64,000 nucleotides of DNA from Streptomyces albireticuli (GTDB lineage: Bacteria > Actinomycetota > Actinomycetes > Streptomycetales > Streptomycetaceae). The stretch is taken from assembly GCF_021228125.1 (NCBI RefSeq), contig NZ_JAJQQS010000002.1, positions 310,001 through 374,000 on the forward strand, read 5' to 3'. Below, in pieces: positions 1-33,834 of this stretch (positions are counted from its first letter, which is position 1; each line of letters starts with the position of its first letter). The position numbers and the translations under genes are program-made. Under the pieces are notes generated by a model. That model was given only the letters and a program-made list of their open reading frames with translations, did no database searches and was not told where the DNA came from.

Positions 1-1033
1 GGCGGCCTACGAGGCGCTCGGCGGCAAGACCGGCGCCGCCGTCGCCCTCGACCCCGCCACCGGCGCGATCCTCGGGATGGCCAGCACACCCTCGTACGAC
101 CCCGGGCGCTTCGCCGGGAACGGGTCGGCCGACCGCAAGGCGTGGGAGGCGCTCCAGAACGACAAGAACCAGCCGATGCTCAACCGCGCGCTGCGCCAGA
201 CCTACCCGCCGGGCTCCACCTTCAAGCTCGTCGTCGCCGCGGCCGCCCTGGAGAACGGCCTCTACACCTCCGTCGACCAGCCGACCGACAGCCCCGACCC
301 CTACCTCCTGCCCGGCACCACCACCTACCTGCGCAACGAGAACACCGCCGCGCCCTGCGCGAACGCCTCGATCCGCACCGCGCTCCAGTACTCCTGCAAC
401 AACGTCTTCGGCCACCTCGCCGAGCGGCTCGGCCAGCAGAAGGTCGCCGAACAGGCGAAGAAGCTCGGCTTCGGCGACGGCAAGCTCGACACGCCCGTAC
501 GCGCCGCCGAGAGCCTCTACCCGACCGGCATGGACAAGGCGCAGACCGCGCTCTCCGGCATCGGCCAGTTCGACGTCCGGGCCACCCCGCTCCAGATGGC
601 CATGGTCTCCTCGGCCATCGCCAATGACGGACTGCTGATGACGCCCCGCCTCGTCGACCGCGTCACCGACGGCACCTCCGGCGTCCTGGAGAAGAGCGAT
701 CCGAAGGAGTACGGCCGGGCGATGTCGGCCGACACGGCCCAGCAGCTCCGGTCCGCCATGCGGACGGTCGTGGAGAAGGGCACCGGCACCAACGCCCGGA
801 TCGACGGGCTCACCGTCGGCGGCAAGACCGGCACCGCTCAGCACGGGGTCGACAACAGCGGTACGCCTTATGCCTGGTTCGTGTCGTACGCCCAGAACGC
901 CCAGGGCAAGCAGATCGCCGTAGCCGTCGTGATCGCCGACAGCGACGCCGCCCGCTCGGAGGTCAGCGGCAACGGCCTCGCCGCACCCGTGGCCGAAGCG
1001 ATCATGCGCGCCGGGCTGGCCCCGGCCGCCTGA
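1..1033 (+). CDS. Class B penicillin-binding protein, transpeptidase domain (5' end outside window)
   Basis: This is the C-terminal part of a peptidoglycan DD-transpeptidase that cross-links stem peptides outside the membrane. The frame is already open at base 2, so the membrane anchor and N-terminal domain lie upstream. All three penicilloyl-transferase motifs are present: STFK (Ser codon 215-217), SCN (392-400) and KTGTA (Lys codon 824-826). Text such as LNRALRQTYPPGSTFKLV and the GQFDVRATPLQMA block resembles PbpA-type proteins of Streptomyces rather than the MreD-linked PBP2 found later in this window. It ends at TGA 1031-1033, 38 nt before the preferred folC start. In S. coelicolor, as I recall, valS lies directly upstream of folC, so a PBP gene here may be a lineage-specific arrangement. 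The family assignment is secure; the exact subclass is not. Confidence 0.9.
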   Translation, partial: AAYEALGGKTGAAVALDPATGAILGMASTPSYDPGRFAGNGSADRKAWEALQNDKNQPMLNRALRQTYPPGSTFKLVVAAAALENGLYTSVDQPTDSPDPYLLPGTTTYLRNENTAAPCANASIRTALQYSCNNVFGHLAERLGQQKVAEQAKKLGFGDGKLDTPVRAAESLYPTGMDKAQTALSGIGQFDVRATPLQMAMVSSAIANDGLLMTPRLVDRVTDGTSGVLEKSDPKEYGRAMSADTAQQLRSAMRTVVEKGTGTNARIDGLTVGGKTGTAQHGVDNSGTPYAWFVSYAQNAQGKQIAVAVVIADSDAARSEVSGNGLAAPVAEAIMRAGLAPAA

Positions 1034-3839: not shown

Positions 3840-4871
3840 ATGGGGAACAACATGTCGTTCATCGGCCGTGACATGGCTGTCGACCTCGGGACCGCCAACA
3901 CGCTGGTGTACGTCAGAGGTCGCGGAATCGTCCTCAACGAGCCATCCGTCGTCGCCATCAATACCAACACCGGCGGGATCCTCGCGGTCGGGGCCGAGGC
4001 GAAGAAGATGATCGGCCGAACCCCGGGCAACATCGTCGCGGTCCGCCCCCTGAAGGACGGCGTGATCGCCGACTTCGAGATCACCGAGCGGATGCTCCGC
4101 TACTTCATTCTCAAGATCCATAAGCGGCGCTGGATGGCCCGCCCCCGGGTCGTCGTCTGTGTGCCCTCCGGCATCACCGGCGTCGAGCGCCGCGCCGTCA
4201 TCGAGGCGTCCACCCAGGCCGGCGCCCGTCAGGTGCACATCATCGAGGAGCCGATGGCCGCCGCCATCGGATCCGGCCTCCCCGTCCACGAGGCCACCGG
4301 CAACATGGTCGTCGACATCGGCGGCGGCACCACCGAGGTCGCCGTGATCTCCCTCGGCGGGATCGTCACCGCGCAGTCCATCCGCGTCGCGGGCGACGAG
4401 CTGGACAACGCGATCATCCAGCACATCAAGAAGGAGTACAGCCTCCTCCTCGGTGAGCGCACCGCCGAGCAGATCAAGATCACCATCGGCTCGGCCTACG
4501 ACCTCGAACAGGACGAGCACACCGAGATCCGCGGCCGAGACCTGGTCAGCGGCCTGCCCAAGACCGTGGTCATCTCCGCCGCCGAGGTCCGCAAGGCCAT
4601 CGAGGAGCCGGTCAACTCCATCGTCGACGCCGTCAAGACCACCCTCGACAAGTGCCCGCCCGAGCTCTCGGGTGACGTCATGGACCGCGGCATCGTTCTC
4701 ACCGGGGGCGGCGCCCTGCTCCGCGGCCTCGACGAGCGGCTGCGCCGGGAGACCGGCATGCCGATCCACATCGCCGAGGACCCGCTGGACTCCGTGGCCC
4801 TCGGCTCCGGCAAGTGCGTCGAGGAGTTCGAGGCCCTCCAGCAGGTCCTGGACGCCCAGCCCCGCCGCTGA
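3840..4871 (+). CDS. mreB: Rod-shape-determining actin homologue MreB
   Basis: MreB is an ATP-binding cytoskeletal protein; in Streptomyces it mainly protects spore-wall assembly rather than vegetative tip growth. The actin-fold signatures are clear: phosphate 1 loop [10 protein letters not shown], phosphate 2 loop [13 protein letters not shown] and adenosine motif [14 protein letters not shown]. The length of 343 residues is typical. The start is either ATG 3840 or ATG 3852 ([11 protein letters not shown]); no clear ribosome-binding site decides between them. It heads the mreB-mreC-mreD-PBP2-rodA cluster but is separated from mreC by about 240 nt, which could hold a separate promoter. The 275 nt before it contain the ndk terminator and no gene. 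Confidence 0.96.
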
Positions 4872-5113
4872 CCGTCCCGCCGGTCCCCACGGCCCCTCCA
4901 GGGCCGCCGGGGACCCGGCCGGAACCGGCGGGCCCGGCGGCCTCGCGGCCACCCCGTACCGCCCGCGCACCCGGCCGGCGCGGACCGGCGCGCGAGGGCG
5001 GCGCACGGCGTACCCGACGCCGCGAAACAACCTGATATACAGGCAGAACGCTCCCGATGACCGGGCCCGCGCCCGCAGCGGACCGGTCCGACGAGAAGGG
5101 CACGCCGCCGCAC

Positions 5114-6046
5114 GTGAGGGACACACGAGAGAGCCGGCTGCTGCTGGTGCTGCTGGTCGCCGTCGCGTTCGCGCTGATCACGGTCGACATCCGCGGCGGC
5201 GAGCAGTCCCCGCTCGACGGCGTCCGGCACGCCGCCGCCTCGGTCTTCGGCCCGGTCGAGAAGGGCGTCGCCGCGGCCGTCGACCCCGTCGGCAACGCCG
5301 TCGCGGCCGTCCGGGACTCCGGCGAGCGGCACGACCGCATCAGCGAGCTGGAGCGCGAGAACGCGACCCTCAAGCAGCGCCTCGGCAGCGACGACCGCAA
5401 CCGCGGCCGCGCCCGTGAGCTCGACGCCATGCTCAAGACCGCCGGAGCCGGCCAGTACGGCATCAAGGGCGCCCAGGTCATCGCCATAGGAGCCGCCCAG
5501 GGCTTCTCCTGGACCGTCACCATCGACGCCGGCAGCAACGACGGCATCCGGCGCGACATGACCGTCCTCAACGGCGACGGCCTCGTCGGCCGCGTCACCA
5601 CCGTGGCCCGCACCTCCGCCACCGTGCTGCTCGCCAACGACCCCAAGTTCACCGTCGGCACCCGCATGGAGAAGACCGGCGAGCTCGGCTTCGCCAACGG
5701 CCAGGGCGACCGCTCCCTGCGCGTCGAACTCCTCAACGGCAAGGCCGTCGTCCGCGAGGGCGACCGCCTCGTCACCTTCGGCTCCAGCCGCGACAAGCCC
5801 TTCGTCCCCGGCGTCCCCGTCGGCGAGGTCACCCGCGTCGAGCCCTCCGGCGGCGGCCTCACCCGCACCCTCCAGGTCCGCCCCTACGTCGGCTACAGCA
5901 AGCTCGACATCGTCGGCGTCGTCGTCCAGCCCCCGCGCACCGACCCCCGCGACACCGTCCTGCCGCCCAAGCCCGAGGGCCCCAAACCCACCCCCACCGT
6001 GACCGTCACCGTCACCCCCACCCCGAGCGCCAAACCCGAGGACTGA
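5114..6046 (+). CDS. mreC: Rod-shape-determining protein MreC
   Basis: MreC is a bitopic membrane protein of the elongation/spore-wall complex that links MreB and MreD to the PBP2 and RodA synthases. One transmembrane helix (LLLVLLVAVAFALITV) follows the start; then come a coiled coil (ISELERENATLKQRL), the two beta-barrel domains typical of MreC, and a Pro/Thr-rich C-terminal tail. The GTG at 5114 (VRDTRESRLLL) is preferred because it matches the usual Streptomyces N-terminus and GAGAAGGG lies upstream. An in-frame ATG at 5057 would add 19 polar residues. mreD starts 3 nt after the stop. Confidence 0.93.
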   Translation: MRDTRESRLLLVLLVAVAFALITVDIRGGEQSPLDGVRHAAASVFGPVEKGVAAAVDPVGNAVAAVRDSGERHDRISELERENATLKQRLGSDDRNRGRARELDAMLKTAGAGQYGIKGAQVIAIGAAQGFSWTVTIDAGSNDGIRRDMTVLNGDGLVGRVTTVARTSATVLLANDPKFTVGTRMEKTGELGFANGQGDRSLRVELLNGKAVVREGDRLVTFGSSRDKPFVPGVPVGEVTRVEPSGGGLTRTLQVRPYVGYSKLDIVGVVVQPPRTDPRDTVLPPKPEGPKPTPTVTVTVTPTPSAKPED

Positions 6047-6049
6047 CCG

Positions 6050-6718
6050 ATGCGCCTCAACCGGATCCTGCTCTCGACCGCGCTCGTGGTGGTCGCCCTC
6101 GTCGTCCAGGTCACCGTGCTCGCCCGCCTCCACCTCCCCGGCGCCGTACCCGACCTGCTCCTCCTCGTCGTCATCGGCCTCGCGCTCGTCTACGGCCATA
6201 CCAGCGGCGCCCTCCTCGGCTTCGGCGCCGGCCTCCTCGCCGACATCGCGCCCCCCGCCGACCACGCCACCGGCCGCTACGCCCTCGTGCTCTGCCTCGT
6301 CGGCTACGCCGTCGGCCTCGTCCGCCCCGAGAACGGACGACTCCGCTCCGCCACCGTGCCCATGATCGTCGTGGTCGTCGCCGCCATCGGATCCACCCTG
6401 CTCTACGCGGGCGTCGGCTCCCTCGTCGGCGACACCTCGGCCCGCCACGTCGGCCTCACCGGACTGCTCTTCAGCGCCGCCCTCTACGACCTGCTGCTCG
6501 CCCCCTTCACCGTCCCCCTGATCATGACCCTCGCCCGCCGCACCGAGAACGACCCGCTGGCCGGCGAGGGGCCCAGCACCATGGGCGGCGGCGAGGGCGC
6601 CTACGGCTGGCTCGGCGGCGGCGGCCGCGGCAGCCGCATCGGCGGCCAGCGCACCGGCCTCCTCGGCAGGTCGGCGCGCAACCGCCAGGGCCGCATGAAG
6701 GGAGCCAAGCGCCTGTGA
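6050..6718 (+). CDS. mreD: Rod-shape-determining membrane protein MreD
   Basis: MreD is the polytopic partner of MreC in the cell-wall synthesis complex. About five hydrophobic segments fill residues 5-165. They are followed by a Gly/Arg-rich basic cytoplasmic tail ending in RMKGAKRL, longer than in E. coli but usual in Streptomyces. The gene starts 3 nt after mreC and ends 34 nt before the PBP2 gene, consistent with one transcript. The assignment rests on topology, size and position as well as sequence, since MreD is poorly conserved. Confidence 0.9.
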   Translation: MRLNRILLSTALVVVALVVQVTVLARLHLPGAVPDLLLLVVIGLALVYGHTSGALLGFGAGLLADIAPPADHATGRYALVLCLVGYAVGLVRPENGRLRSATVPMIVVVVAAIGSTLLYAGVGSLVGDTSARHVGLTGLLFSAALYDLLLAPFTVPLIMTLARRTENDPLAGEGPSTMGGGEGAYGWLGGGGRGSRIGGQRTGLLGRSARNRQGRMKGAKRL

Positions 6719-6752
6719 GACCGCCCGCTTCCGACACCCGGGAGGACGCCCG

Positions 6753-8906
6753 ATGAGCAACCTCCCCGAGACCGGGCGGGACTCCCGGGTCACCATCCGG
6801 CTCGTCGTCATCCAGATCCTGGTCTTCTCACTCCTGCTCACCCTCGGCGGCCGCCTCTGGTACCTCCAGATCCGCAACGGCGACCAGTACACCGCCGAGG
6901 CCGCCGACAACCACATCCAGCAGGTCGTCGCCCCCGCCACCCGGGGCTCGATACTGGACGCCCGCGGCATCCCCCTCGCCGACAACGAGACCCGCCTCGT
7001 CGTCTCCGCCAGCCGCACCGACCTGATGAAGATGAAGGACCGCGGCAAGGCCGTCCTCACCCGCCTCGCCGGAGTCCTCGGCCTCCCCGCCGACGAGGTC
7101 GCCGCCAAGGTCCGGCTGTGCGACGCCAAGACCCCCAAGCCCTGCTGGGCGGGCTCGCCCTACCAGCCCATCCCCATCACCGACGAGGCCACCACCCAGC
7201 AGGCCCTCCAGATCCGCGAGCGCGCCGAGGACTTCCCCGGCATCACCGCCGAACCCACCGCCGTACGCCGCTACGCCGGCCCCGGCGGCTCCAACACCGC
7301 CCAGGTCCTCGGCTACCTCTCACCCGTCTCCGACGACGAGATCATCAAGGCCAAGGCCGCCGGCCGCCCCCCGCTGCTCCGCTCCGACCAGGTCGGCCGC
7401 TCCGGCCTGGAGCGGCAGTACGACGCCGAGCTGCGCGGCAAGGCCGGCGTCACCCGCTACGAGGTCGACAACCTCGGCCGCGTCATCGGCAAGGCCAAGA
7501 GCGACAAGGCCGTCCCCGGCGCCAACGTCATCACCAGCATCGACGCCCGCGTGCAGGCCATAGCGGAACGCGAGCTCGACCAGGCCATGAAGGACGCCCG
7601 CAAGGAGCTCGACAAGAACACCGGCGTCAACTACAAGGCCGACGCCGGCGCCGTCGTGGTGATGGAGTCCAGGACCGGCCGCGTCGTCGCGATGGCCTCC
7701 AACCCCACCTACGACCCCAACGCCTGGGTCGGCGGCATCAGCGCCAAGGACTACCAGCAGCTCACCGGCAAGGATTCCGACTACCCGCTGCTCAACCGCG
7801 CCATCCAGGGCCAGGCCGCCCCCGGCTCGGTCTTCAAGGTCATCTCCGCCACGGCCGCGGTCAACGCCGGCTACTCCTTCACCGACAACTACAACTGCTC
7901 CAGCTCCTACAGCATCGGCAACCAGGTCTTCAAGAACTTCGAGTCCAAGGGATACGGCCCCATCAACCTCGGCCGCGCCCTGGAGGTCTCCTGCGACACC
8001 GTCTTCTACGACCTGGCCTACCGCCAGTGGCAGAAGGACGGCGGGAACAACCCTAAGCACCCCAAGGACTGGTTCTACCGCACCGCCCACCAGTTCGGCC
8101 TCGGCAAGGAGACCGGCATCGACCTCCCCAACGAGGTCAAGGGCCGCGTCCCCGACCGCGAGTGGAAGAAGCGCTACTGGGAGGCCAACAAGGACACCTG
8201 GTGCAAGCAGGGCGGCAACGCCGAGGACTACGCCGCCAAGATCGCCAAGGAGAACTGCGAATCCGGCATGCGCATGCGCGCCGGTGACTCCGTCAACTAC
8301 TCCATCGGCCAGGGCGACACCCTCGTCACCCCCGTCCAGATGGCCACCATCTACGCCGCCATCAGCAACGGCGGCACCCTCTACAACCCCACCGTCGGCA
8401 AGGCCGTCGCCAGCCCCGACGGCAAGACCGTCCGCGAGATCCGGCCCACCGCCCACGGCAAGCTGCCCTTCGACACCCGCACCCGCAACCAGCTCGACGC
8501 CGCCCTGGCCGGCGTCGCCACCCAGGGCAGCGCCGCCTGGCGGTTCGAGGGCTGGCCGCAGAAGGAGATCCCGATGCACGCCAAGACCGGCACCGCCGAG
8601 GTCTACGGCAAGCAGACGACCTCCTGGTTCGCCACCTACACCCAGGACTACACGATCGTCATGACGATCTCCCAGGGCGGCACCGGCTCCGGCGCCTCCG
8701 GCCCGGCCGTACGCAAGATCTACAACGGCCTCTACGGCGTCGACGACAAGGGCAAGATCGACCCGAAGAAGGCGCTCCTCCCGCACCCCCAGGAGAAGCT
8801 CCCCACCATCGAGAAGGACGGCACGATCGAGGCCCAGAAGATCGATCCGCCCGCCCCGAAGCCCAAGGAGAGCGACGCCGCCCGGAAGGAGGAGAAGGAC
8901 GAATGA
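6753..8906 (+). CDS. mrdA: Penicillin-binding protein 2 (MreD-linked transpeptidase)
   Basis: This class B PBP cross-links glycan strands made by its SEDS partner RodA. One N-terminal membrane anchor lies at about residues 15-35. A dimerisation/pedestal domain follows, then the transpeptidase domain with S359-V-F-K362, S413-C-D415 and K611-T-G-T. The second motif is SCD, where many class B PBPs have SxN. The 717 residues end in a Lys/Glu/Pro-rich tail. A GGAGG box precedes the ATG. The stop overlaps the rodA start in an ATGA, so the transpeptidase and its glycosyltransferase are translationally coupled. Confidence 0.96.
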   Translation: MSNLPETGRDSRVTIRLVVIQILVFSLLLTLGGRLWYLQIRNGDQYTAEAADNHIQQVVAPATRGSILDARGIPLADNETRLVVSASRTDLMKMKDRGKAVLTRLAGVLGLPADEVAAKVRLCDAKTPKPCWAGSPYQPIPITDEATTQQALQIRERAEDFPGITAEPTAVRRYAGPGGSNTAQVLGYLSPVSDDEIIKAKAAGRPPLLRSDQVGRSGLERQYDAELRGKAGVTRYEVDNLGRVIGKAKSDKAVPGANVITSIDARVQAIAERELDQAMKDARKELDKNTGVNYKADAGAVVVMESRTGRVVAMASNPTYDPNAWVGGISAKDYQQLTGKDSDYPLLNRAIQGQAAPGSVFKVISATAAVNAGYSFTDNYNCSSSYSIGNQVFKNFESKGYGPINLGRALEVSCDTVFYDLAYRQWQKDGGNNPKHPKDWFYRTAHQFGLGKETGIDLPNEVKGRVPDREWKKRYWEANKDTWCKQGGNAEDYAAKIAKENCESGMRMRAGDSVNYSIGQGDTLVTPVQMATIYAAISNGGTLYNPTVGKAVASPDGKTVREIRPTAHGKLPFDTRTRNQLDAALAGVATQGSAAWRFEGWPQKEIPMHAKTGTAEVYGKQTTSWFATYTQDYTIVMTISQGGTGSGASGPAVRKIYNGLYGVDDKGKIDPKKALLPHPQEKLPTIEKDGTIEAQKIDPPAPKPKESDAARKEEKDE

Positions 8907-10102
8907 GCGCCACCGACGGCTACAACGTCCGCCGCTACACCCCCGAGCGCTCCACCTGGGGCCGGCTCACCGCCCGCGACTCCGTCGTCCGCCGCCTCGA
9001 CTGGGTCATGCTCCTCGCCGCCCTCGCCCTCTCCGGCATCGGCACCCTGCTCGTCTACTCCGCCACCCGAAACCGCACCGAGCTCAACCAGGGCGACCCC
9101 TACTACTTCCTGCTCCGCAACATCCTCAACACCGGCATCGGACTCGGCCTCGCCGTCGCCGCCGTCTGGGTCGGCCACCGCGCCCTGCGCGGCGGCGTCC
9201 CCATCCTCTACGCGATCTCCGTACTGCTCACCGCCGCCGTCCTCACCCCGCTCGGCGCGACCATCAACGGCGCCCGCTCCTGGATCCAGCTCGGCGCCGG
9301 CTTCTCCATCCAGCCCTCCGAGTTCACCAAGATCACCATCACGCTGGGGATGGCGATGCTGCTGGCCGCCAAGGTCGACGCCGGCGACCGGCAGCACCCC
9401 GACCACCGCACCGTCGTGGAGGCCCTCGGCCTCGCCGCCCTCCCGATCGTCATCATCCTGCTGATGCCCGACCTCGGCTCCGTCATGGTGCTGGTGGTCA
9501 TCGTCCTCGCCGTGCTGCTCGCCTCCGGCGCCTCCCACCGCTGGATCGCCGGCCTGCTCGGCGCCGGCGTCCTCGGCTGCGTCCTCATCTGGCAGCTAGG
9601 CGTCCTGGACGAATACCAGATCAACCGCTTCGCCGCCTTCGCCAACCCCGCCCTCGACCCCTCCGGCGTCGGCTACAACACCAACCAGGCCAGGATCGCC
9701 ATCGGCTCCGGCGGCCTCACCGGCTCCGGCCTCTTCCACGGCAGCCAGACCACCGGCCAGTTCGTCCCCGAGCAGCAGACCGACTTCATCTTCACCGTCG
9801 CCGGCGAGGAACTCGGCTTCGTCGGCGCCGGCGCGATCGTCTTCCTCGTCGGCGTCGTGCTCTGGCGCGCCTGCCGGATCGCCCGCGAGACCACCGAGCT
9901 CTACGGCACGGTCGTCGCCGCCGGGATCATCGCCTGGTTCGCCTTCCAGTCCTTCGAGAACATCGGGATGACCCTCGGCATCATGCCCGTCACCGGACTG
10001 CCCCTGCCCTTCGTCTCCTACGGCGGCTCGTCCATGTTCGCCGCCTGGATCGCGATCGGACTGCTCCAGTCGATCAAGGTCCAGCGGCCGGTCTCCGCCT
10101 GA
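8903..10102 (+). CDS. rodA: SEDS peptidoglycan glycosyltransferase RodA
   Basis: RodA is a polytopic lipid-II polymerase of the SEDS family, working with PBP2. The protein has 399 residues and about ten transmembrane helices. Family signatures include PSEFTKITI, MPDLGSVMVL, and the C-terminal PVTGLPLPFVSYGGSSM. The ATG overlaps the preceding TGA, giving 1:1 coupled expression with PBP2. It is the last gene of the mre cluster; the next gene has its own -10-like box. Confidence 0.95.
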   Translation: MSATDGYNVRRYTPERSTWGRLTARDSVVRRLDWVMLLAALALSGIGTLLVYSATRNRTELNQGDPYYFLLRNILNTGIGLGLAVAAVWVGHRALRGGVPILYAISVLLTAAVLTPLGATINGARSWIQLGAGFSIQPSEFTKITITLGMAMLLAAKVDAGDRQHPDHRTVVEALGLAALPIVIILLMPDLGSVMVLVVIVLAVLLASGASHRWIAGLLGAGVLGCVLIWQLGVLDEYQINRFAAFANPALDPSGVGYNTNQARIAIGSGGLTGSGLFHGSQTTGQFVPEQQTDFIFTVAGEELGFVGAGAIVFLVGVVLWRACRIARETTELYGTVVAAGIIAWFAFQSFENIGMTLGIMPVTGLPLPFVSYGGSSMFAAWIAIGLLQSIKVQRPVSA

Positions 10103-21876: not shown

Positions 21877-23913
21877 TCAGACTGCCGCCGTCTCGTCCGC
21901 CTCGCGCTGCGTCGGGATCTCCGAGGCCCGCGCCTCCATCCGCTCGCGCCGCTCGTCGGCCTCCGCGGCCAGCGCCAGCGCGGCCTGGTTGAAGCGGACC
22001 AGCGACGGCGGGTCGGACGGGCCGAGCAGCTGGACCTTGAGCTCCGCGCGGGCCGCCGCGAGGGCGTCCCGGCCGGGCTCGCGGACGGCAGCGAGGAGCG
22101 CCGGTACGCCCTCCGCCTCGGGGGTGAGGATCGTGGCGGCGCTGACGGTCGGGAAGACCGCCCGGAACTCCTCCTCGGCCATGCCGCTGGTGTTGGCCAC
22201 CGCGTACGGCTTCTCGCTGATCAGGTAGTCCGAGACGACGCTGGAGACGTCGCTGATCAGCAGGTCGGACTGGTTGAAGCAGGTGAAGAGGGCCGGGCGG
22301 GCCGAGGTGATGATCTGGTGCTCCCAGACCGGCAGCGAGGCCCAGTAGGCGGCCTCCCAGGCCGCCGTGGCGGACTCGACGCGCGCCGAGCGGCCCTTCT
22401 CCGGGGTGCCCTGGAGCAGCATCCGCTCGATCTCGTCGGCGCTGCGCCGGAAGGAGCTGGTGGTGAGCTGCTCCAGCTCGGCGGTGCGGCGCACCAGCTC
22501 GGCGGCGGCCTCCGGGCCGGGGCGGGCGCCGTCACGGCGGGTGTTGGCCTCGCGGATCATGGCCTGGATGCGCTCGTTGGCGCGGCCCGCGCGGGGGTCG
22601 ACGGAGCCGGTCATCGGGTGCGGCTTGTAGAGCAGCCGGACCCCGGGGTCGGCGAGCAGCGCGCGGACGATGTTCTCGCCGGCGAGCATGACCGAGGTGT
22701 TGCCGGGGTTGCCGTCCCAGCCCTCCCACGTCGGCGCGTAGAGGACCGTCGTGTACTGACCGGTGGGGACGCCCGTGTACGGCTGGATGGGCGCGAGCTG
22801 CGGGCGGCCCACCTCGACGACGTCGCGGTCGTCGACGCCGATGTCGGCCAGCTGGTAGCGCTCGCGGGCGGCGGGGCCGGCTACCCAGATCTCGTCGTAC
22901 GCCTTGGAGTACGGGTTGCAGCTGGAGAGCTTGTCGCTCTCGCCGTGGTTGGTGAAGGCGTGCTTGATCGACGGCATGCGCAGGACCTGCGAGGTCTTAC
23001 CGGAGTTCGCCGGGTGCAGCATCATCTTCAGCGAGGACTTCTCCAGCGCCATCAGGTGCACGACCTTGGGGATGCAGACGATCGGCACGTCGGTGGCGTC
23101 GATCTTCTGCACCATGAACCGCTCACGCAGCACGATGACGGGGTTGCCGTCGAGCGCGGCGAGGGTGGAGAGCCACATGTTGGCCTGGTAGGCCGAGCTC
23201 GTGCCGCCGGAGAAGTACATGCCGACGGTCGGGCGGTAGTCGGCCAGCCAGCGGTCCAGCCACTCCAGGGCCTGCTGGTCGTTGGCGATGCGCTTCTTGG
23301 GGCGGAGCCAGCTCGCCAGGTAGGCGGTGCCGCCGAGGCCGAGCAGGACCGCGAGGCCCATGCCGATCTCGGCCCACAGGACCCGCTCGGTGCCCGCGGT
23401 GATCAGGAGGCCCACGGTGGCCGGGACGGCGAAGCGCAGCAGCCGGCGGCCGTGCTGGCGGCCGAGCAGGCGCGGCGGCGCGGCGGACAGGCGCAGGCCG
23501 GTGGTGTCGATGTTGCGGGTGAGGAAGGGGAGCGTGCGGCTGCGGCGGACCATGATCGCGGTGGCCTGGCAGGCCAGGTGCGAGCCGTAGAAGAGGACCA
23601 GTCCGACGAACACCGGTGCGTAGTCGCGCAGCGAGCCGTCGCCGTGCAGGCGCAGCAGCCCGACCAGGAGCAGCATGTCGCGCAGCAGCTGCCGCACCAT
23701 GACATCGAAGCGGATCTTGCCGAGCACGGCGACCAGACCGGGGTCCCGGTGCTGGAGGTAGAGATCGAGCGCGAGGCCCGCCGCCGAGGCGGTGATCAAG
23801 AGCGGCACGTTGGGCAGCAGGGCTCCCACGAGCTGGGTGGCGAAGAACACCAGCATCGCGAGCAGCGCCGCGAGCTGTACGGCTCGGCGGGAGGCTGTTC
23901 CGGCAGAAGGCAC
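21877..23913 (-). CDS. Membrane protein with CDP-glycerol glycerophosphotransferase-like domain
   Basis: This 678-residue protein has about five N-terminal transmembrane segments (residues 10-65, 90-120 and 165-205), then a cytoplasmic domain resembling the TagB/TagF (Glyphos_transf) family. Family-like blocks include TNHGESDK, VLYAPTWEG, LLYKPHP and the nucleotide-binding LLISDVSSVVSDYL. Such enzymes polymerise glycerol- or polyol-phosphate wall polymers; the substrate here is unknown, and Streptomyces walls contain teichoic/teichulosonic-type polymers. The start is GTG at 23913, with AGGAG 8 nt upstream on the minus strand. It is divergent from proB and convergent with obg. Confidence 0.8.
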   Translation of the reverse strand: MPSAGTASRRAVQLAALLAMLVFFATQLVGALLPNVPLLITASAAGLALDLYLQHRDPGLVAVLGKIRFDVMVRQLLRDMLLLVGLLRLHGDGSLRDYAPVFVGLVLFYGSHLACQATAIMVRRSRTLPFLTRNIDTTGLRLSAAPPRLLGRQHGRRLLRFAVPATVGLLITAGTERVLWAEIGMGLAVLLGLGGTAYLASWLRPKKRIANDQQALEWLDRWLADYRPTVGMYFSGGTSSAYQANMWLSTLAALDGNPVIVLRERFMVQKIDATDVPIVCIPKVVHLMALEKSSLKMMLHPANSGKTSQVLRMPSIKHAFTNHGESDKLSSCNPYSKAYDEIWVAGPAARERYQLADIGVDDRDVVEVGRPQLAPIQPYTGVPTGQYTTVLYAPTWEGWDGNPGNTSVMLAGENIVRALLADPGVRLLYKPHPMTGSVDPRAGRANERIQAMIREANTRRDGARPGPEAAAELVRRTAELEQLTTSSFRRSADEIERMLLQGTPEKGRSARVESATAAWEAAYWASLPVWEHQIITSARPALFTCFNQSDLLISDVSSVVSDYLISEKPYAVANTSGMAEEEFRAVFPTVSAATILTPEAEGVPALLAAVREPGRDALAAARAELKVQLLGPSDPPSLVRFNQAALALAAEADERRERMEARASEIPTQREADETAAV

Positions 23914-27788: not shown

Positions 27789-28409
27789 GTGCCGGACGAC
27801 GTGGGGGGCCAGCCGTTCCCGGACGGCGAGGAGCCCGACAGCAACCGCAGCGGGGACGACGCGTTCGCCTCCGTGGTCTTCGACGAGGAGTTCGTGCGGT
27901 CCGCCGCGGTCCACGAACCCTCAGCGGTCGAGCGGATGCTCGCCGCCGCCCAGGCCCGCGCGGAGGCGGAGTCCTCCCGGGCCCGGGCGGGCGGCGGCAC
28001 CGCCGACGACGACTTCGACCTCGACGACTTCCCCGAGGACGCCGCCGGCCCGGCGGCCGGCCGCCCCGCCACCCGCGCGGACGGCTGGTACGCCCTGGCC
28101 CATGACCTCGATCCCGACGACGCCTACGGTCCGTACGGCCGCTACGGCTCCGCCCGCCGCCCGTACCGCGGCCATCCCCGCTGGCACCGCCCGGTGGCGT
28201 GGGTGCTCGCCGTGCTGATGGGCATCGGCGTGGTGGCCCTCGCCTTCGCCGCCGTGTACCGCAGCGCCTCCTCCGGCGGGCGGCCCGGCTCCGATCCGCC
28301 GCCCGCGACGACCGGGGTGGACGCCCCGGCGGCCGAGCGGCCCGGACCCCTGCCCTCCGTCTCGGCCGATTCCGAGCCCCCGGTGGCCTCCGCGGCGCCC
28401 CGCGGCTAG
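27789..28409 (+). CDS. Single-pass membrane protein with VVFDExFVR motif (shorter member of pair)
   Basis: This 206-residue protein has an acidic, disordered cytoplasmic N-terminus containing SVVFDEEFVRSAAVHEPSA, then an Asp-rich linker and a Tyr/Gly/Arg patch. One transmembrane helix follows (about 137-160, VAWVLAVLMGIGVVALAFAAV), then a short Pro/Ser-rich external tail. The motif recurs in the next gene, so the two are paralogous in their cytoplasmic parts. The start is GTG 27789, with TACGCT (27777-27782) 6 nt upstream indicating a leaderless transcript. The family is actinobacterial and of unknown function; I infer a membrane-envelope role. Confidence 0.8.
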   Translation: MPDDVGGQPFPDGEEPDSNRSGDDAFASVVFDEEFVRSAAVHEPSAVERMLAAAQARAEAESSRARAGGGTADDDFDLDDFPEDAAGPAAGRPATRADGWYALAHDLDPDDAYGPYGRYGSARRPYRGHPRWHRPVAWVLAVLMGIGVVALAFAAVYRSASSGGRPGSDPPPATTGVDAPAAERPGPLPSVSADSEPPVASAAPRG

Positions 28410-28518
28410 CCCCCGGCGACCGGCGGTGACATGCGTGCATCGACCAGTCGGATTTTTCCTCACAACTTGTCGTGTACCAGCGCGTTTACCGAAGGCCCGG
28501 CAGACCTACTCTTGAGGT

Positions 28519-29610
28519 ATGGACGGGCCTGGAGACCCTCCTGAAGGGACGCCCGAAGGCGCCCCTGGAGGCGGGGAGGACGAGTACCGATCCGTCGTCT
28601 TCGACGAATCGTTTGTCCGGGCTGCCCGCCTCCAGGAGTACTCCGCGCGCGAGCGCATGGGCGACCACGCCCTCGCTGTCCGTAACCGCCATGTGTGGAC
28701 GCGCGTCAGCACCTCGCGCCAGGTCGTCGTCCTGGTGATCCTGATCGCCCTCGCCTTCGGCACGGCCGTCTATATGGGCCTGCGCCACCCCTACAAGGAC
28801 CCGGCCGCCCCCGTCGCCGAGCCGATGCGCTCCACCCTGATCCCGCTGGCACCCCGCGACCCCGTGCCCGGCGGCCCGGCCGCGGAGCTCTTCGACCACA
28901 GCCCGGCCGCCCAGTTCCGGCTGGGGCACGAGGGCATCACCCTGCCGGCCGCGCGCAGCACCCAGCACTTCTCCGAGAGCCAGGTCATGGCCGCGCTCGC
29001 CGCCGCCAAGGAGTACACCGTGAAGTCCGCCCTGGACCCGGCCGTGCTCACCGGCGGCACCCAGCGCGGCGTGCGGCTGCTGCTCGATCCCCAGCAGCTC
29101 GACCAGTTCGACCGCAGCTTCGACCACCCCGCCGACGACGGGCGGCACGCGGCCACCGCCTGGCTGATCCGCTTCGACCCGGCACAGGTCGCCCTGGTCG
29201 ACACCCCCGTACGGACGCGGGGCGTCTTCACCGTCACCGAGACGGGCTCCTCCACCCTGGAGGTCACCTCCGACCACACCTTCGTCTACGCCCTGCGCCC
29301 CGCGAAGGCGGGCAGCGAGCACAAGGCGGCCACGGACGAGGCGTCGCTGTTCACGGTGCGCCGGGCGATGAAGTTCCGCTTCGACCGCGAGGGCCTCCAG
29401 GACCACCACCTGACCGTGGTCCAGAGCCAGCTCCAGGCGGGCCCGGAGTCCTGCGCCGCGGACGACGAGGTCTATCTGCGCCCCCTCCTGGCGGGCCAGC
29501 GCCCCACGGGCGACGGCCCGGCGGGCACGGACCCGTACGCGACGGACCAGGTGACGGCGGCGCTGTGCGGCACGCTGGCGGGCGAGGCGCAGCCGACGCC
29601 ACGGCGGTGA
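28519..29610 (+). CDS. Single-pass membrane protein with VVFDExFVR motif and large external domain
   Basis: The N-terminal 60 residues carry YRSVVFDESFVRAARLQEYSARERM, matching the motif of the upstream protein. One transmembrane helix (about 69-88, VVVLVILIALAFGTAVYMGL) is followed by an external domain of about 270 residues. That domain is predicted alpha/beta, with two Cys residues near the C-terminus (SCAADD and LCGTL) that could form a disulfide. No enzyme motif is visible. TACTCT (28507-28512) lies 6 nt before the ATG, so the gene probably has its own leaderless promoter. Function unknown; co-location with its paralogue and an M48 protease is notable. Confidence 0.82.
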   Translation: MDGPGDPPEGTPEGAPGGGEDEYRSVVFDESFVRAARLQEYSARERMGDHALAVRNRHVWTRVSTSRQVVVLVILIALAFGTAVYMGLRHPYKDPAAPVAEPMRSTLIPLAPRDPVPGGPAAELFDHSPAAQFRLGHEGITLPAARSTQHFSESQVMAALAAAKEYTVKSALDPAVLTGGTQRGVRLLLDPQQLDQFDRSFDHPADDGRHAATAWLIRFDPAQVALVDTPVRTRGVFTVTETGSSTLEVTSDHTFVYALRPAKAGSEHKAATDEASLFTVRRAMKFRFDREGLQDHHLTVVQSQLQAGPESCAADDEVYLRPLLAGQRPTGDGPAGTDPYATDQVTAALCGTLAGEAQPTPRR

Positions 29611-29800: not shown

Positions 29801-30934
29801 CTACGCCCGCCCAGAACCCTCCCCGGGCCCCTCAGGCCCCTTCCCGGGCCCCTCGGACCCCTTCGGCGGAGTCGTTCCCCCGCCCTTGAAGGAATCCCGC
29901 AGGCGCCCGCCCAGCCCGCCCGCCCCCGACGCCAGATCCCGCACCAGCCCCAGCAGCGGGTCCTTGCTCGCGCGCACCGACTCCGCGTAGTGGTTCGCGG
30001 ACTCCCGGAACGAGTCGCTCACGGACGTGTCCTTGTCCGCCGAGCGCCGCGGGTAGTGACCGTCCATGATCCGCTGGTGTTCGCGGCTCCCGGCCCACTT
30101 CCGCAGCTCCGCCGCCCGCACGGTCGTGAAGGGGTGCGAGCGCGGCAGCACGTTCATGATCTTCAGCACGGAGTCGCGCAGGTCGCCGCCCGCCTCGTAC
30201 TCCTCCGCCTGGGCGAGGAACGCGTCCACGTTCATCTCGTGGAGGTGGTTGCCGCCCGCGATCTTCATCAGGCCGCGCATCGAGGCCGTGAGGTCCTGGC
30301 CCACCAGCAGCCCCGCCCGGTCCGCCGACAGCTCCGACTTGCGGAACCACTCGCGGAGTCCCGTGACGATCGCCATCACGGCGAGGTTGCCCAGCGGGAT
30401 CCACGCCACCTTCAGGGCGAAGTTCGTCAGGAACAGCAGGATCGTGCGGTAGACCGAGTGTCCCGACAGGGCGTGGCCCACCTCGTGGCCCACGACGGCC
30501 CGCATCTCCTCCTCGTCCAGCAGTTCGACGAGGCCCGTGGTCACCACGATGATCGGCTCGTCCAGGCCGATGCACATGGCGTTCGGCTGCGGGTCCTGGG
30601 TGACGTACATCGGCGGGACCTTCGGCAGGTCCAGGATGTAGCAGGCGTCCAGCAGCATCGTGTGCAGATGGGGGAACTGCTCCTCGCCCACCCGCACCGA
30701 GTCCGACAGGTACAGCAGCCGCAGGCTGCGCTCGGGCAGCAGCCCGCTCAGCGCCTTGAAGACGGTGTCGAAGCCGCTCAGCTTGCGCAGGGCCACCAGG
30801 GCGGAGCGGTCCGCCGGGTGCTCGTAGGCGCGCGAGGAGATGTCCGGGAAGCGCTTCCGCTGCCGGCCGGGCGCCCGCTCCCGTTCCTCGCCCGAACCGT
30901 TCCCCGCCGTGCTGCCGCCGTTGCCGTCGCTCAT
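29801..30934 (-). CDS. M48 family membrane-associated metalloprotease
   Basis: This is a zinc endopeptidase of the HtpX/Ste24 clan. The zinc site is H150-E151-x2-H154 (VVGHEVGHALSGH), with E201 in ELSADRAG as the third ligand. Hydrophobic stretches at about 160-195 could associate with the membrane, although canonical HtpX has more helices. The C-terminal 70 residues are Gly/Pro-rich and disordered. The start is ATG 30934. It is transcribed toward the VVFDE-motif genes. In E. coli the related HtpX degrades damaged membrane proteins; the substrate here is unknown. Confidence 0.9.
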   Translation of the reverse strand: MSDGNGGSTAGNGSGEERERAPGRQRKRFPDISSRAYEHPADRSALVALRKLSGFDTVFKALSGLLPERSLRLLYLSDSVRVGEEQFPHLHTMLLDACYILDLPKVPPMYVTQDPQPNAMCIGLDEPIIVVTTGLVELLDEEEMRAVVGHEVGHALSGHSVYRTILLFLTNFALKVAWIPLGNLAVMAIVTGLREWFRKSELSADRAGLLVGQDLTASMRGLMKIAGGNHLHEMNVDAFLAQAEEYEAGGDLRDSVLKIMNVLPRSHPFTTVRAAELRKWAGSREHQRIMDGHYPRRSADKDTSVSDSFRESANHYAESVRASKDPLLGLVRDLASGAGGLGGRLRDSFKGGGTTPPKGSEGPGKGPEGPGEGSGRA

Positions 30935-31058
30935 GAAGACCCCCTCGATCCGTGTCGGTCGGCTTGCGTCATGGCCGCGTGGCGGCCGTGTCCTGGCCCG
31001 TCCCCCGGGTCGCCGACCCCACAGTAAGCGCTGCCGCGGCTATGGCTACCGTGGAGAC

Positions 31059-31229
31059 ATGCCCGACATCAACGCTTTCACCGCGCACCCCGCGTTCACC
31101 GAGTTCCTCGCCGTCTCCAAGGGGGACCAGGGGCCCGGCGTGGTGCTCCGCACGGTCCTGGTGGTCGGCGTCGTCGGCGTCGCCTTCCTCGCGTGGTTCC
31201 TGCTGCGCGGATACGGCAAGAAGGACTGA
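31059..31229 (+). CDS. 56-residue single-pass membrane protein
   Basis: The sequence begins MPDINAFTAHPAFTEFLAV, has one transmembrane helix (about 29-48, VLRTVLVVGVVGVAFLAWFLL) and ends in GYGKKD. TACCGT (31047-31052) lies 6 nt before the ATG, the leaderless geometry seen repeatedly here. It lies divergent from the M48 protease gene, 124 nt away. The orderly topology and promoter argue for a real gene; the function is unknown. Confidence 0.72.
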   Translation: MPDINAFTAHPAFTEFLAVSKGDQGPGVVLRTVLVVGVVGVAFLAWFLLRGYGKKD

Positions 31230-31363: not shown

Positions 31364-31537
31364 ATGACTGCCTCCTCTGGCTTCGCCTCAGCCCACACCG
31401 CCCTGGTCAGCCTCGCCTCCGAGGGCGAGCACGTGGACACCCACCCGAGCATCAGCCCGTACATGACCGGCGGCGCCGCCCTCGTCATCCTGCTGCTCCT
31501 CGTCTGGATCACCACCCGCTTCAACCGCGACCGCTGA
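31364..31537 (+). CDS. 57-residue single-pass membrane protein
   Basis: Reading from ATG 31364 to TGA 31535-31537 gives a small protein beginning [21 protein letters not shown] His/Asp-containing loop follows, then a transmembrane helix ([16 protein letters not shown]) and a basic end, RFNRDR. I recall a similar small protein at this place in other Streptomyces, just before nadD. It resembles the preceding small protein in layout but not in sequence. Function unknown. Confidence 0.7.
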
Positions 31538-32198: not shown

Positions 32199-32220
32199 CA
32201 GGGCACTGAGGGGCGCACTG

Positions 32221-33834
32221 GTGAACGACCGACAGGATCCGTACGCGCAGGACCCGTACGGACAGCAGCCGCAGCTGTACGGCTACGACGCCTACGGTCA
32301 GCCGGTGTACCGGCCGGACGCCCCGGAGCGCGTGTACGACCAGTACGGCCGGCCGGTCCAGCAGCCCGTACAGCAGCCGCTCCAGCAGCCCGCCGAGGCG
32401 CAGGGACACGGCTACGGCGGTCACCACGAGGGCTACGCCGCCCCGTACGCCCAGCACCAGGGTCAGGACCAGGGCGGGACGCGGACGCGGCAGCAGGAGT
32501 GGATCCCGCGCCAGGCCGGCCCGCCCGCCCCCGAGGAGGCCCACGCCGGCCCCGGAGCGGGCTCCGGCCCGGAGCGGGATTCCGTCCCCGCCCCGGAGTA
32601 CCGCACCGAGCAGTTCTCCTTCATCGAGGAGCCGGACGAGGACTCCGAGGACGTCATCGACTGGCTCAAGTTCAGCGAGAGCCGTACCGAGCGGCGTGAC
32701 GAGCGCAAGCGCAAGGGCCGCAACCGTGTGGTCGCCCTTGTCGTGGCCGTCGTCCTGGTGGTGGCCGGAGTGGCCGGATACCTGTGGTTCGCCGGTTCCG
32801 GCGAAGAGAAGGGCCCGGTGGCGGCGGGCGGCGCGCAGAAGCGCGACGTGATCGTCGTCCATCTGCGGCAGACCCAGGGCGGCGGCAGCTCCACGGCCCT
32901 GCTCGTCGATAACGAGACCACCCGTAAGGGCACCACGATCCTGCTGCCCAACTCCCTGGCCGTCGCCAGGGAGGGCGGTGGCTCCACCACGCTCGGCAAG
33001 TCCGTGCAGGACGACGGGACCGGCGCGACCCGGGACGCCCTGAACACCCTGCTCGGCGCCGACATCAAGGGCAGCTGGCGGCTGGACACGCCCTACCTGG
33101 AGAACCTCGTCGAGCTGGTCGGCGGGATCGCCGTGGACACCGACACCGACGTGGCCGGCGCCAAGGCCGGCGAGAGTCCCGTCGTCCGTAAGGGCGAGGG
33201 GCAGGACCTCAGCGGTCAGATGGCCGTCGCCTACGCCACCTACCGGGCGCCCGGGGAGGCCCCGGACAAGCAGCTGGCCCGCTTCGGGCAGGTCATGCGG
33301 GCGGTGCTGAAGAAGCTCTCCGCCGACACCGGCGCGACCACCCGGACCGTGGAGTCGCTCGCCCAGATCCCCGATCCCTCGCTCTCCGTGGAACAGCTCG
33401 GCGCCTCGCTGGCCCAGCTCGCCGCGCTGGCCAGGAAGGGCTCGTACGACACCGCCCTCCTGCCCGTGCAGGCCGACGGCACCCTGGGGGACAAGGCGAC
33501 CGAGGGCGTCGTGAAGGACGTCCTGGGCGGCACGGTGAAGAACACCGACAAGAACGCCGCGCCCCGGGTCAGCGTGAAGAACGCCACAGGCAACAAGGGC
33601 GCCACCGGTTCCGCGCTCGTCACGCTCGTCAACGGTGGCTACACCGCGGTCGACGGCGGCACGGCGGGCCAGGCAGGGGCGGCGTCCTCGGTCACCTACG
33701 CCGACGACCGGCGGGCCGCCGAGGCCAAGGAGGTCGCCAAGACGCTGGGGCTGCCCGCGTCGGCGGTGAAGCAGGCGCAGGGGGCGTCCAACGCGGACGT
33801 CACCGTGGTCCTGGGCAAGGACTACAAGGGCTGA
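32221..33834 (+). CDS. LCP-like (LytR-CpsA-Psr) membrane protein with C-terminal LytR_C domain
   Basis: The 537 residues comprise a Gln/Pro/Tyr-rich cytoplasmic region (1-165), one transmembrane helix (about 169-191), an LCP-like external domain (about 200-400) and a LytR_C domain (about 440-537, PRVSVKNATGNKGATGSALV). Canonical LCP proteins attach wall polymers to peptidoglycan using Asp/Arg residues in blocks such as RSDT and PRD. Here the equivalent places read KRDVIVVH and LPNSLAV, so catalysis may be lost. The start is GTG 32221, immediately downstream of nadD; the frame is open further upstream inside nadD but is not used. The family assignment is moderate. Confidence 0.78.
   Translation: MNDRQDPYAQDPYGQQPQLYGYDAYGQPVYRPDAPERVYDQYGRPVQQPVQQPLQQPAEAQGHGYGGHHEGYAAPYAQHQGQDQGGTRTRQQEWIPRQAGPPAPEEAHAGPGAGSGPERDSVPAPEYRTEQFSFIEEPDEDSEDVIDWLKFSESRTERRDERKRKGRNRVVALVVAVVLVVAGVAGYLWFAGSGEEKGPVAAGGAQKRDVIVVHLRQTQGGGSSTALLVDNETTRKGTTILLPNSLAVAREGGGSTTLGKSVQDDGTGATRDALNTLLGADIKGSWRLDTPYLENLVELVGGIAVDTDTDVAGAKAGESPVVRKGEGQDLSGQMAVAYATYRAPGEAPDKQLARFGQVMRAVLKKLSADTGATTRTVESLAQIPDPSLSVEQLGASLAQLAALARKGSYDTALLPVQADGTLGDKATEGVVKDVLGGTVKNTDKNAAPRVSVKNATGNKGATGSALVTLVNGGYTAVDGGTAGQAGAASSVTYADDRRAAEAKEVAKTLGLPASAVKQAQGASNADVTVVLGKDYKG

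Follow-up and report, generated by a model that had tools for sequence, protein, structure and literature searches.

A cytoplasmic peptide shared by the adjacent Streptomyces membrane proteins SCO2583 and SCO2584 and its recurrence ahead of unrelated outer domains

NCBIfam recognizes a 35-residue domain, NF052257 (Sc_trio_core), together with the families NF052259 (SCO2584_fam), NF052260 (SCO2583_fam), and NF052258 (SGM_3592_fam), and the stretch common to the two proteins discussed here is this same domain. The NCBIfam description names only SCO2583 and SCO2584 and gives no mechanism, whereas the module also occurs on Septum_form proteins, matrixin-like proteases, and further proteins from other actinomycete families. 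A preliminary description of the locus had stated that no function was assigned. This holds for the mechanism, but both families and the shared stretch are already named, and one family carries the product name 'spore wall biosynthesis protein'. Literature searches returned no mention of SCO2583, SCO2584, or guessed locus tags of S. venezuelae and S. lividans, and a search for papers on docking motifs gave no match. The pair is already known to NCBIfam; the use of the module across Septum_form, protease, and NTF2-like carriers was not met in this limited literature search. SCO2584 reportedly features in work by Kleinschnitz (2011), Sigle (2016), and Vollmer (2019), which may report a physical interaction of SCO2583 or SCO2584.

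The Streptomyces spore wall synthesizing complex (MreBCD, PBP2, Sfr, RodZ, PkaI, and PdtA) is described in PMC4416010. SCO2578 (PdtA) is assigned to it by a 2024 paper citing an older study (PMC11481543). The likeness of the present pair to this complex consists of the gene neighborhood and the NCBIfam product name. Single-pass proteins of the VirB8 type with an NTF2-like outer domain share the topology of SCO2583 and give a weak fold match (Z about 7), but no sequence relation was found and no secretion genes were seen beside SCO2583. Septum_form proteins (PF13845) offer a further comparison, as many of them in one actinomycete family bear the same module, whereas SCO2583 and SCO2584 themselves have no Septum_form match in Pfam.

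Two membrane proteins with a common motif

The analysis covers a window of 64,000 nucleotides from Streptomyces albireticuli (Table 1). Protein 1, of the SCO2584 type, consists of an acidic N-terminus, the motif, a long disordered linker, a single membrane helix, and a short outer tail rich in Pro, Ser, and Ala. Protein 2, of the SCO2583 type, has an acidic start, the motif, a single membrane helix, and an outer part of about 274 residues with a domain of predicted NTF2-like arrangement. Both reading frames, their common order of acidic start, motif, and one helix, and the difference between their outer parts agree with the preliminary description. Family membership is clear in both cases: protein 1 matches NF052259 at 251.5 bits against a cut-off of 80 (residues 1-205 of 206), and protein 2 matches NF052260 at 595.9 bits against a cut-off of 205 (residues 1-359 of 363). 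In the outer part of SCO2583, Cys312 and Cys350 are invariant across the 11 rows of alignment A3.

Table 1. Coordinates of the pair, its features, and selected neighbors in the window
Feature	Position	Strand	Details or basis
mreB, mreC, mreD, class B PBP, rodA-type gene	3840..10102	+	Pfam
SCO2584-family protein gene (protein 1)	27789..28409	+	GTG start, 206 aa
Motif of protein 1, residues 26-49, FASVVFDEEFVRSAAVHEPSAVER	27864..27935	+	NF052257 Sc_trio_core 62.5 bits, residues 24-58
Predicted membrane helix of protein 1, residues 133-161	28185..28271	+	AlphaFold2
SCO2583-family protein gene (protein 2)	28519..29610	+	363 aa
Motif of protein 2, residues 23-46, YRSVVFDESFVRAARLQEYSARER	28585..28656	+	NF052257 Sc_trio_core 54.4 bits, residues 21-51
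Predicted membrane helix of protein 2, residues 65-89	28711..28785	+	AlphaFold2
Predicted outer alpha+beta domain of protein 2, residues 146-317, NTF2-like arrangement	28954..29469	+	Foldseek, VIA-align
M48-family membrane protease gene, convergent neighbor	29801..30934	-	Peptidase_M48 5.2e-26
LCP-LytR_C protein gene	32218..33834	+	LytR_C 1e-12, LytR_cpsA_psr 4e-7

After the acidic start, the N-terminal sequences read SVVFDEEFVRSAAVHEPSAVERM in protein 1 and SVVFDESFVRAARLQEYSARERM in protein 2. They have in common the peptide SVVFDE.FVR.A...E.SA.ERM, located on the cytoplasmic side ahead of the one membrane helix. The resemblance is far above chance. Local alignment of the whole proteins scores 97, a value reached by none of 2000 shuffles (mean 40.5, s.d. 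6.2, maximum 78), and with the N-terminal parts alone none of 5000 shuffles attains the real score (shuffle maximum 54). Searched against the 705 open frames of at least 40 aa in the window, a motif profile matches only proteins 1 and 2 (2.5e-17 and 5.6e-17); the next best frame has an E-value of 0.1, and the motif is absent from the LCP and Mre proteins of the window. This profile contains the motif of protein 2 itself and relatives of both proteins, and the independent result is that of NCBIfam, where both motifs exceed the Sc_trio_core cut-off of 30 bits. Within the 8.56-Mb genome, that cut-off is passed solely at these two places.

Conservation was followed in 80 orthologous loci, mostly from Streptomyces, with two from Yinghuangia, one from Mangrovactinospora, one record titled Streptosporangium, and one titled Actinobacteria bacterium. 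As the preliminary description had expected, the genes co-occur and the motif is kept: 78 of the 80 loci hold at least two motif genes, and the remaining two end at a contig boundary. The number is two in 76 loci, three in Y. seranimata, and four in Yinghuangia soli. A tandem of four motif proteins lies between proA and the M48 gene in Y. soli (L152:3312-6776) and in L114:2773-6240, and comprises one protein of SCO2584 type, one short protein, and two SCO2583-like proteins. Searching with whole proteins recovers SCO2583 in 80 loci, SCO2584 in 77, M48 in 79, and proA in 78. Of the three loci in which SCO2584 was missed, one yields a second motif gene in the motif search, and the remaining two are those truncated at contig ends. 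SCO2583 and SCO2584 share a strand in all 77 pairs from the whole-protein search.

Because the pattern used to collect the loci lies inside the motif, conservation at motif positions 1-10 is in part a product of the search. The second-half residues E, S/T, A, E, and R lie outside this pattern and are nevertheless fixed as well. Furthermore, the full motif is present in each of six SCO2583 orthologues (L302-L307) that were retrieved by their outer domain only. Mean column entropy in SCO2583 (80 sequences) is 0.28 bits for the motif versus 1.22 for the whole protein, which makes the motif the most conserved stretch of the family. The corresponding values in SCO2584 (77 sequences) are 0.47 and 1.28 bits, and here the 24-residue windows of lowest entropy include the motif together with the membrane helix. 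At 13 of the 24 motif positions, the same residue is found in more than 85% of both orthologue sets, partly by construction; other positions are fixed differently in the two sets.

Predicted structures differ between the two proteins. The AlphaFold2 model of SCO2584 (mean pLDDT 62) gives the motif as helices 33-38 and 46-68, with block pLDDT values of 73-90 over residues 31-60. That of SCO2583 (mean pLDDT 81) gives a single low-confidence helix with block values of 43-54. Because the models disagree, the fold of the isolated motif is uncertain, which would suit a peptide that becomes ordered upon binding. For the SCO2583 outer domain, block pLDDT exceeds 90 across most of the stretch from residue 101 to 330. 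By name, almost all of its top structural matches are NTF2-like or cystatin-like (best Foldseek E-value 0.0059, best Z 7.8), and they include LinA, the CaMKII hub, VirB8, and scytalone dehydratase, which we take to be NTF2-like or cystatin-like folds. The model points to an NTF2-like arrangement rather than proving kinship, and Z values below 8 may reflect a common arrangement. Searches of PDB sequences with the motif and with a SCO2583 profile returned no match up to an E-value of 10.

Spread of the module and exchange of outer parts

The profile search across actinobacterial genomes that the preliminary description had suggested shows that the module extends well beyond the pair. In a class-wide sample, the Sc_trio_core model matches 81 of 394 genomes (E <= 0.001) in 12 of 137 genera, and at least two copies occur in each of 40 same-genus genomes among the matches listed; 14 control genomes gave none at E <= 0.001. 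A broader profile, A1, was built from 42 sequences with the consensus DPFxxLVLDExFVRxAxxxEPSARxR, in which one Glu and one Arg are invariant. It matches 92 of the 394 genomes at E <= 0.01 (21 genera) and 84 at E <= 0.001. Genome-wide counts are lower bounds, as the best 19, 31, or up to 150 candidates were scored per genome, depending on the search. In a phylum-wide sample, 10 of 246 genomes matched at 0.001, and eight of these belong to the same genus.

Reading of individual matches separates convincing carriers from chance ones. A repeat search took in ten A1 genomes, three from the stronger group and seven of the eight in the weaker group; nine places were readable, and L335 had no frame. 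Six of the eight weaker genomes were read, with five resembling chance and one real. L328 (2e-5) and L329 (1.3e-4), from genomes outside the profile, are convincing and again place the module ahead of a membrane helix. L332 also appears real, with a basic tail and no helix on the hydropathy scale used. L330, L331, L333, L334, L336, and L337 were rejected as carriers since they resemble chance on reading, and L330 (genome G119) is among the 84 stronger matches. Outside the class, G635 (1.6e-5) is a convincing carrier whose hydrophobic stretch was judged by eye, and G701 (8.7e-4) is not convincing.

The preliminary description had placed the two proteins in a two-component envelope system. Such a closed pair does not survive these searches, as the module sits on at least five further protein kinds, some of them single at unrelated loci; lone carriers within the stretch read include L082-L101 and L313-L321. 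Two Septum_form carriers likewise pass the Sc_trio_core cut-off (L086 at 37.5 bits, L082 at 41.0 bits), as does L107 (38.6 bits). Most carriers were found by the motif search itself.

Matches of at least 24 bits number 386 over all loci and reduce to 199 distinct carriers (<85% identical). In 177 of these, a hydrophobic helix follows 39-141 residues downstream of the module (median 70), as called by a simple hydropathy scale with a linker limit of 170 residues. Another 20 are of the SGM_3592 type, which lacks a helix; here the C-terminus consists of PPAGW, a pair of aromatic or aliphatic residues, and an Arg/Lys stretch, and probably serves as a membrane-binding tail. The last two are L314, with a basic, amphipathic-looking tail instead of a helix, and L186, an SCO2584 with a linker beyond the limit whose helix region still aligns. 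SGM_3592-type genes adjoin ABC exporter-like genes, judged by eye, in L308:3991-7030, L312:6361-10299, and L327:4161-6208.

What follows the anchor is highly variable. Septum_form stands behind module and helix in L086 (3e-47), L093 (1.2e-55), L081 (8.6e-55), L082 (3e-13), and L088 (7e-11), and a matrixin-like zinc protease domain (Peptidase_M10) in L078 (1.5e-5, 25.4 bits versus a cut-off of 24). In other carriers, the outer part is SCO2583-like and has no Pfam name, is an unrelated domain (L117), or is almost missing. Two proteins from small-genome actinomycetes (L318:6265-7317 and L320:5912-6976, one of them scanned with Pfam) combine the motif with a matrixin-like outer metalloprotease bearing HEFGHVxGLGH. 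In genus g64, a Septum_form motif gene is followed by a relative of the protein at window positions 77-1033 (L088:7088-8983, L091:3001-4908, L099:3096-5021); the relative is 35-36% identical to this window protein, which resembles a penicillin-binding protein by eye.

The same outer part also occurs with and without the module. Septum_form was found at 25 places in 11 of 12 genomes searched, and 14 of these proteins bear the module, all in family f18 (14 of 22 there, including L274, whose matched stretch contains a stop codon). The module is missing from the single Septum_form copies of two f4 genomes and of one Streptomyces. Plasmids of Streptomyces and Embleya likewise carry SCO2583-like proteins (L343-L350). 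Residues 94-358, which follow the motif, retrieved 14 matching plasmid records, of which eight were read. Seven have a WE[RK]FL[RQ] segment followed by EPSARAR, so that the second motif half alone is complete, and L349 has no motif. The seven have a longer spacer and belong to a type of paralogue distinct from true SCO2583; a paralogue of this type is also present in the genome of the window (G000:C17:88362-89429).

SCO2583-like paralogues of the L237 group occur in 24 of 41 Streptomyces genomes (E < 1e-30). The outer domain of L237 is 31% identical to that of the window SCO2583 (4.9e-17), and the kinship rests on this domain; L237 was also the best match of a half-motif search of the genome of the window, but as it is itself a row of the profile, that E-value is void. 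In 20 of these 24 loci, a pattern search finds half motif and helix. The four in which it does not are L300 and L301, whose frames are short, L294, where the alignment starts at residue 50, and the unresolved L279. Presence and absence of the module beside the same outer part, in Septum_form proteins and plasmid relatives, indicate that module and outer domains travel partly independently. By computation, the motif is shared and conserved, keeps a constant place before the membrane anchor, and is exchanged among unrelated outer domains.

Gene neighborhood and a possible Mre link

The pair sits 22.9 kb after mreB and 2.6 kb before the LCP-LytR_C gene, which by gene order is the likely counterpart of pdtA (SCO2578). 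The mre cluster is well supported in Pfam (MreB_Mbl 8e-156, MreC 1e-35, MreD 7e-7, Transpeptidase 4e-60, FTSW_RODA_SPOVE 5e-94). Closer neighbors are proA, the M48 gene, small membrane proteins, a nadD-like gene, and LCP genes; two tiny predicted membrane proteins of 61 and 57 residues (31044-31229 and 31364-31537) have no confident family. Between the mre cluster and the pair lies a CDP-glycerol glycerophosphotransferase-like gene (21877-23913, minus strand, Glyphos_transf 2.9e-8), which fits a wall-polymer neighborhood. Elsewhere, the neighbors of motif genes are diverse by eye (an ABC exporter, glnA/htpX, ilvBNC-serA-leuA), and hence no single partner gene is indicated.

Of the 18 motif genomes tested, among them small genomes (2.4-3.4 Mb), 17 have MreB (E below 1e-140), and the one miss is an assembly 84% complete. 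MreB was also present in two of four motif-free genomes, while the other two gave weak matches of about 1e-15 to 1e-17 that are Hsp70-like by reading. With four motif-free genomes only, this co-occurrence (17/18 versus 2/4, Fisher p = 0.07) is suggestive and not decisive.

Candidate roles of the module

The preliminary description had read the motif as a docking site for a common cytoplasmic partner. Conservation, a cytoplasmic position by topology, and occurrence on unrelated outer parts are all as docking predicts; its confinement to the pair did not hold. We consider that the module is probably a modular cytoplasmic docking peptide, through which one cytoplasmic partner places different outer domains. 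The peptide would comprise some 24-35 residues in the inner tail of membrane-anchored proteins and would bind one and the same protein in all carriers. Each carrier would bring a different outer part to the same place: the NTF2-like domain with SCO2583, the flexible tail with SCO2584, and Septum_form or a matrixin-like protease in other actinomycetes. Docking fits better than its rivals because the inner peptide is preserved ahead of the anchor, whereas the outer parts are exchanged.

In Streptomyces, the most likely site would be the Mre-directed spore-wall machinery. That the partner belongs to the Mre/spore-wall complex is the weakest step and a tentative best guess, drawn from the position of the genes between mreBCD-pbp2-rodA and the LCP gene and from the presence of MreB in nearly all motif genomes tested. 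A more speculative extension, which we hold to be rather doubtful, would treat the peptide as a common address in Mre-keeping actinomycetes. This address would be read by one hub in the cytoplasm, possibly MreB, Mbl, or one of their binding proteins, which would collect a variable set of outer domains (metalloproteases, NTF2-like sensors, septum-formation domains) where septa and spore walls are built.

Alternatively, the motif could be a self-contained element acting within or between carriers, through helix pairing or SCO2583-SCO2584 oligomerization, with no third protein involved. The adjacency of carriers in all uncut pair loci, the tandem of four in Y. soli, and the good-confidence helices of the SCO2584 model agree with this account. 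However, many carriers stand alone in the stretch read, and the SCO2583 motif is modeled at low confidence, so we regard pairing as unlikely.

It appears less probable still that the motif serves M48-type membrane proteases as a recognition or adaptor site in quality control of envelope proteins. An M48 gene is present in 79 of the 80 pair loci, and the preliminary description had included it in a joint system with the pair; in the window, however, it lies on the minus strand, opposite to the pair. Of 56 other motif loci examined with a home-made profile, 43 gave no M48 match, many of these being the same locus in related genomes. Carriers of about 85 residues, which form a second motif family, have an HtpX-like gene within 3.3 kb in 11 of 12 Streptomyces loci. 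Ten Streptomyces genomes hold 6-9 M48 matches each, which gives a post hoc chance of about 0.6% for such a neighbor of one gene. Examples of this arrangement are L107:4961-6529 and L112:3101-5018, the latter followed by PspAB (2e-74), part of an envelope-stress set. Against this, the htpX locus of the window genome, with a PspAB neighbor seen by eye, contains no motif gene, and the motif gene of G133 has no M48 nearby. M48 as the docking partner, promising at first, was weakened by this motif-less htpX locus and by the 43 loci, and the link of motif genes to M48 is weak.

Equally improbable is that the motif directs targeting to, or insertion by, the membrane machinery and forms no lasting docking site, a role comparable to that of YSIRK signals. 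In the carriers examined, the motif is always on membrane-anchored proteins and N-terminal of the helix, but the distance to the helix varies over the range given above, the motif is acidic and highly specific, and SGM_3592-type proteins carry it without a membrane helix.

Least probable is a role of the carriers as membrane-bound anti-sigma factors, in which the inner peptide would hold a sigma factor and the outer domain would sense the envelope: many anti-sigma factors have such a topology, the SCO2583 outer domain matches the NTF2-like part of RsgI9, an 85-residue carrier has a very weak NCBIfam anti-sigma match (0.0089, 16 bits versus a cut-off of 100), and sigma-like genes were seen by eye about 1.6 kb from the L315 carrier and in the L116 stretch, but no sigma-factor gene lies beside the pair, none recurs in the gene lists read for other carriers, Pfam finds no anti-sigma family in 20 carriers scanned, and neither window protein has an anti-sigma domain in Pfam or NCBIfam.

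Should the docking reading apply, the partner of the peptide would be a hub of actinomycete envelope building that could be reached with a short bait. Docking would provide a first mechanism for SCO2583 and SCO2584 and would link Septum_form proteins, which are poorly understood, to that machinery. As such, a docking handle of this kind would help to explain how outer domains are recruited to the sites of wall building.
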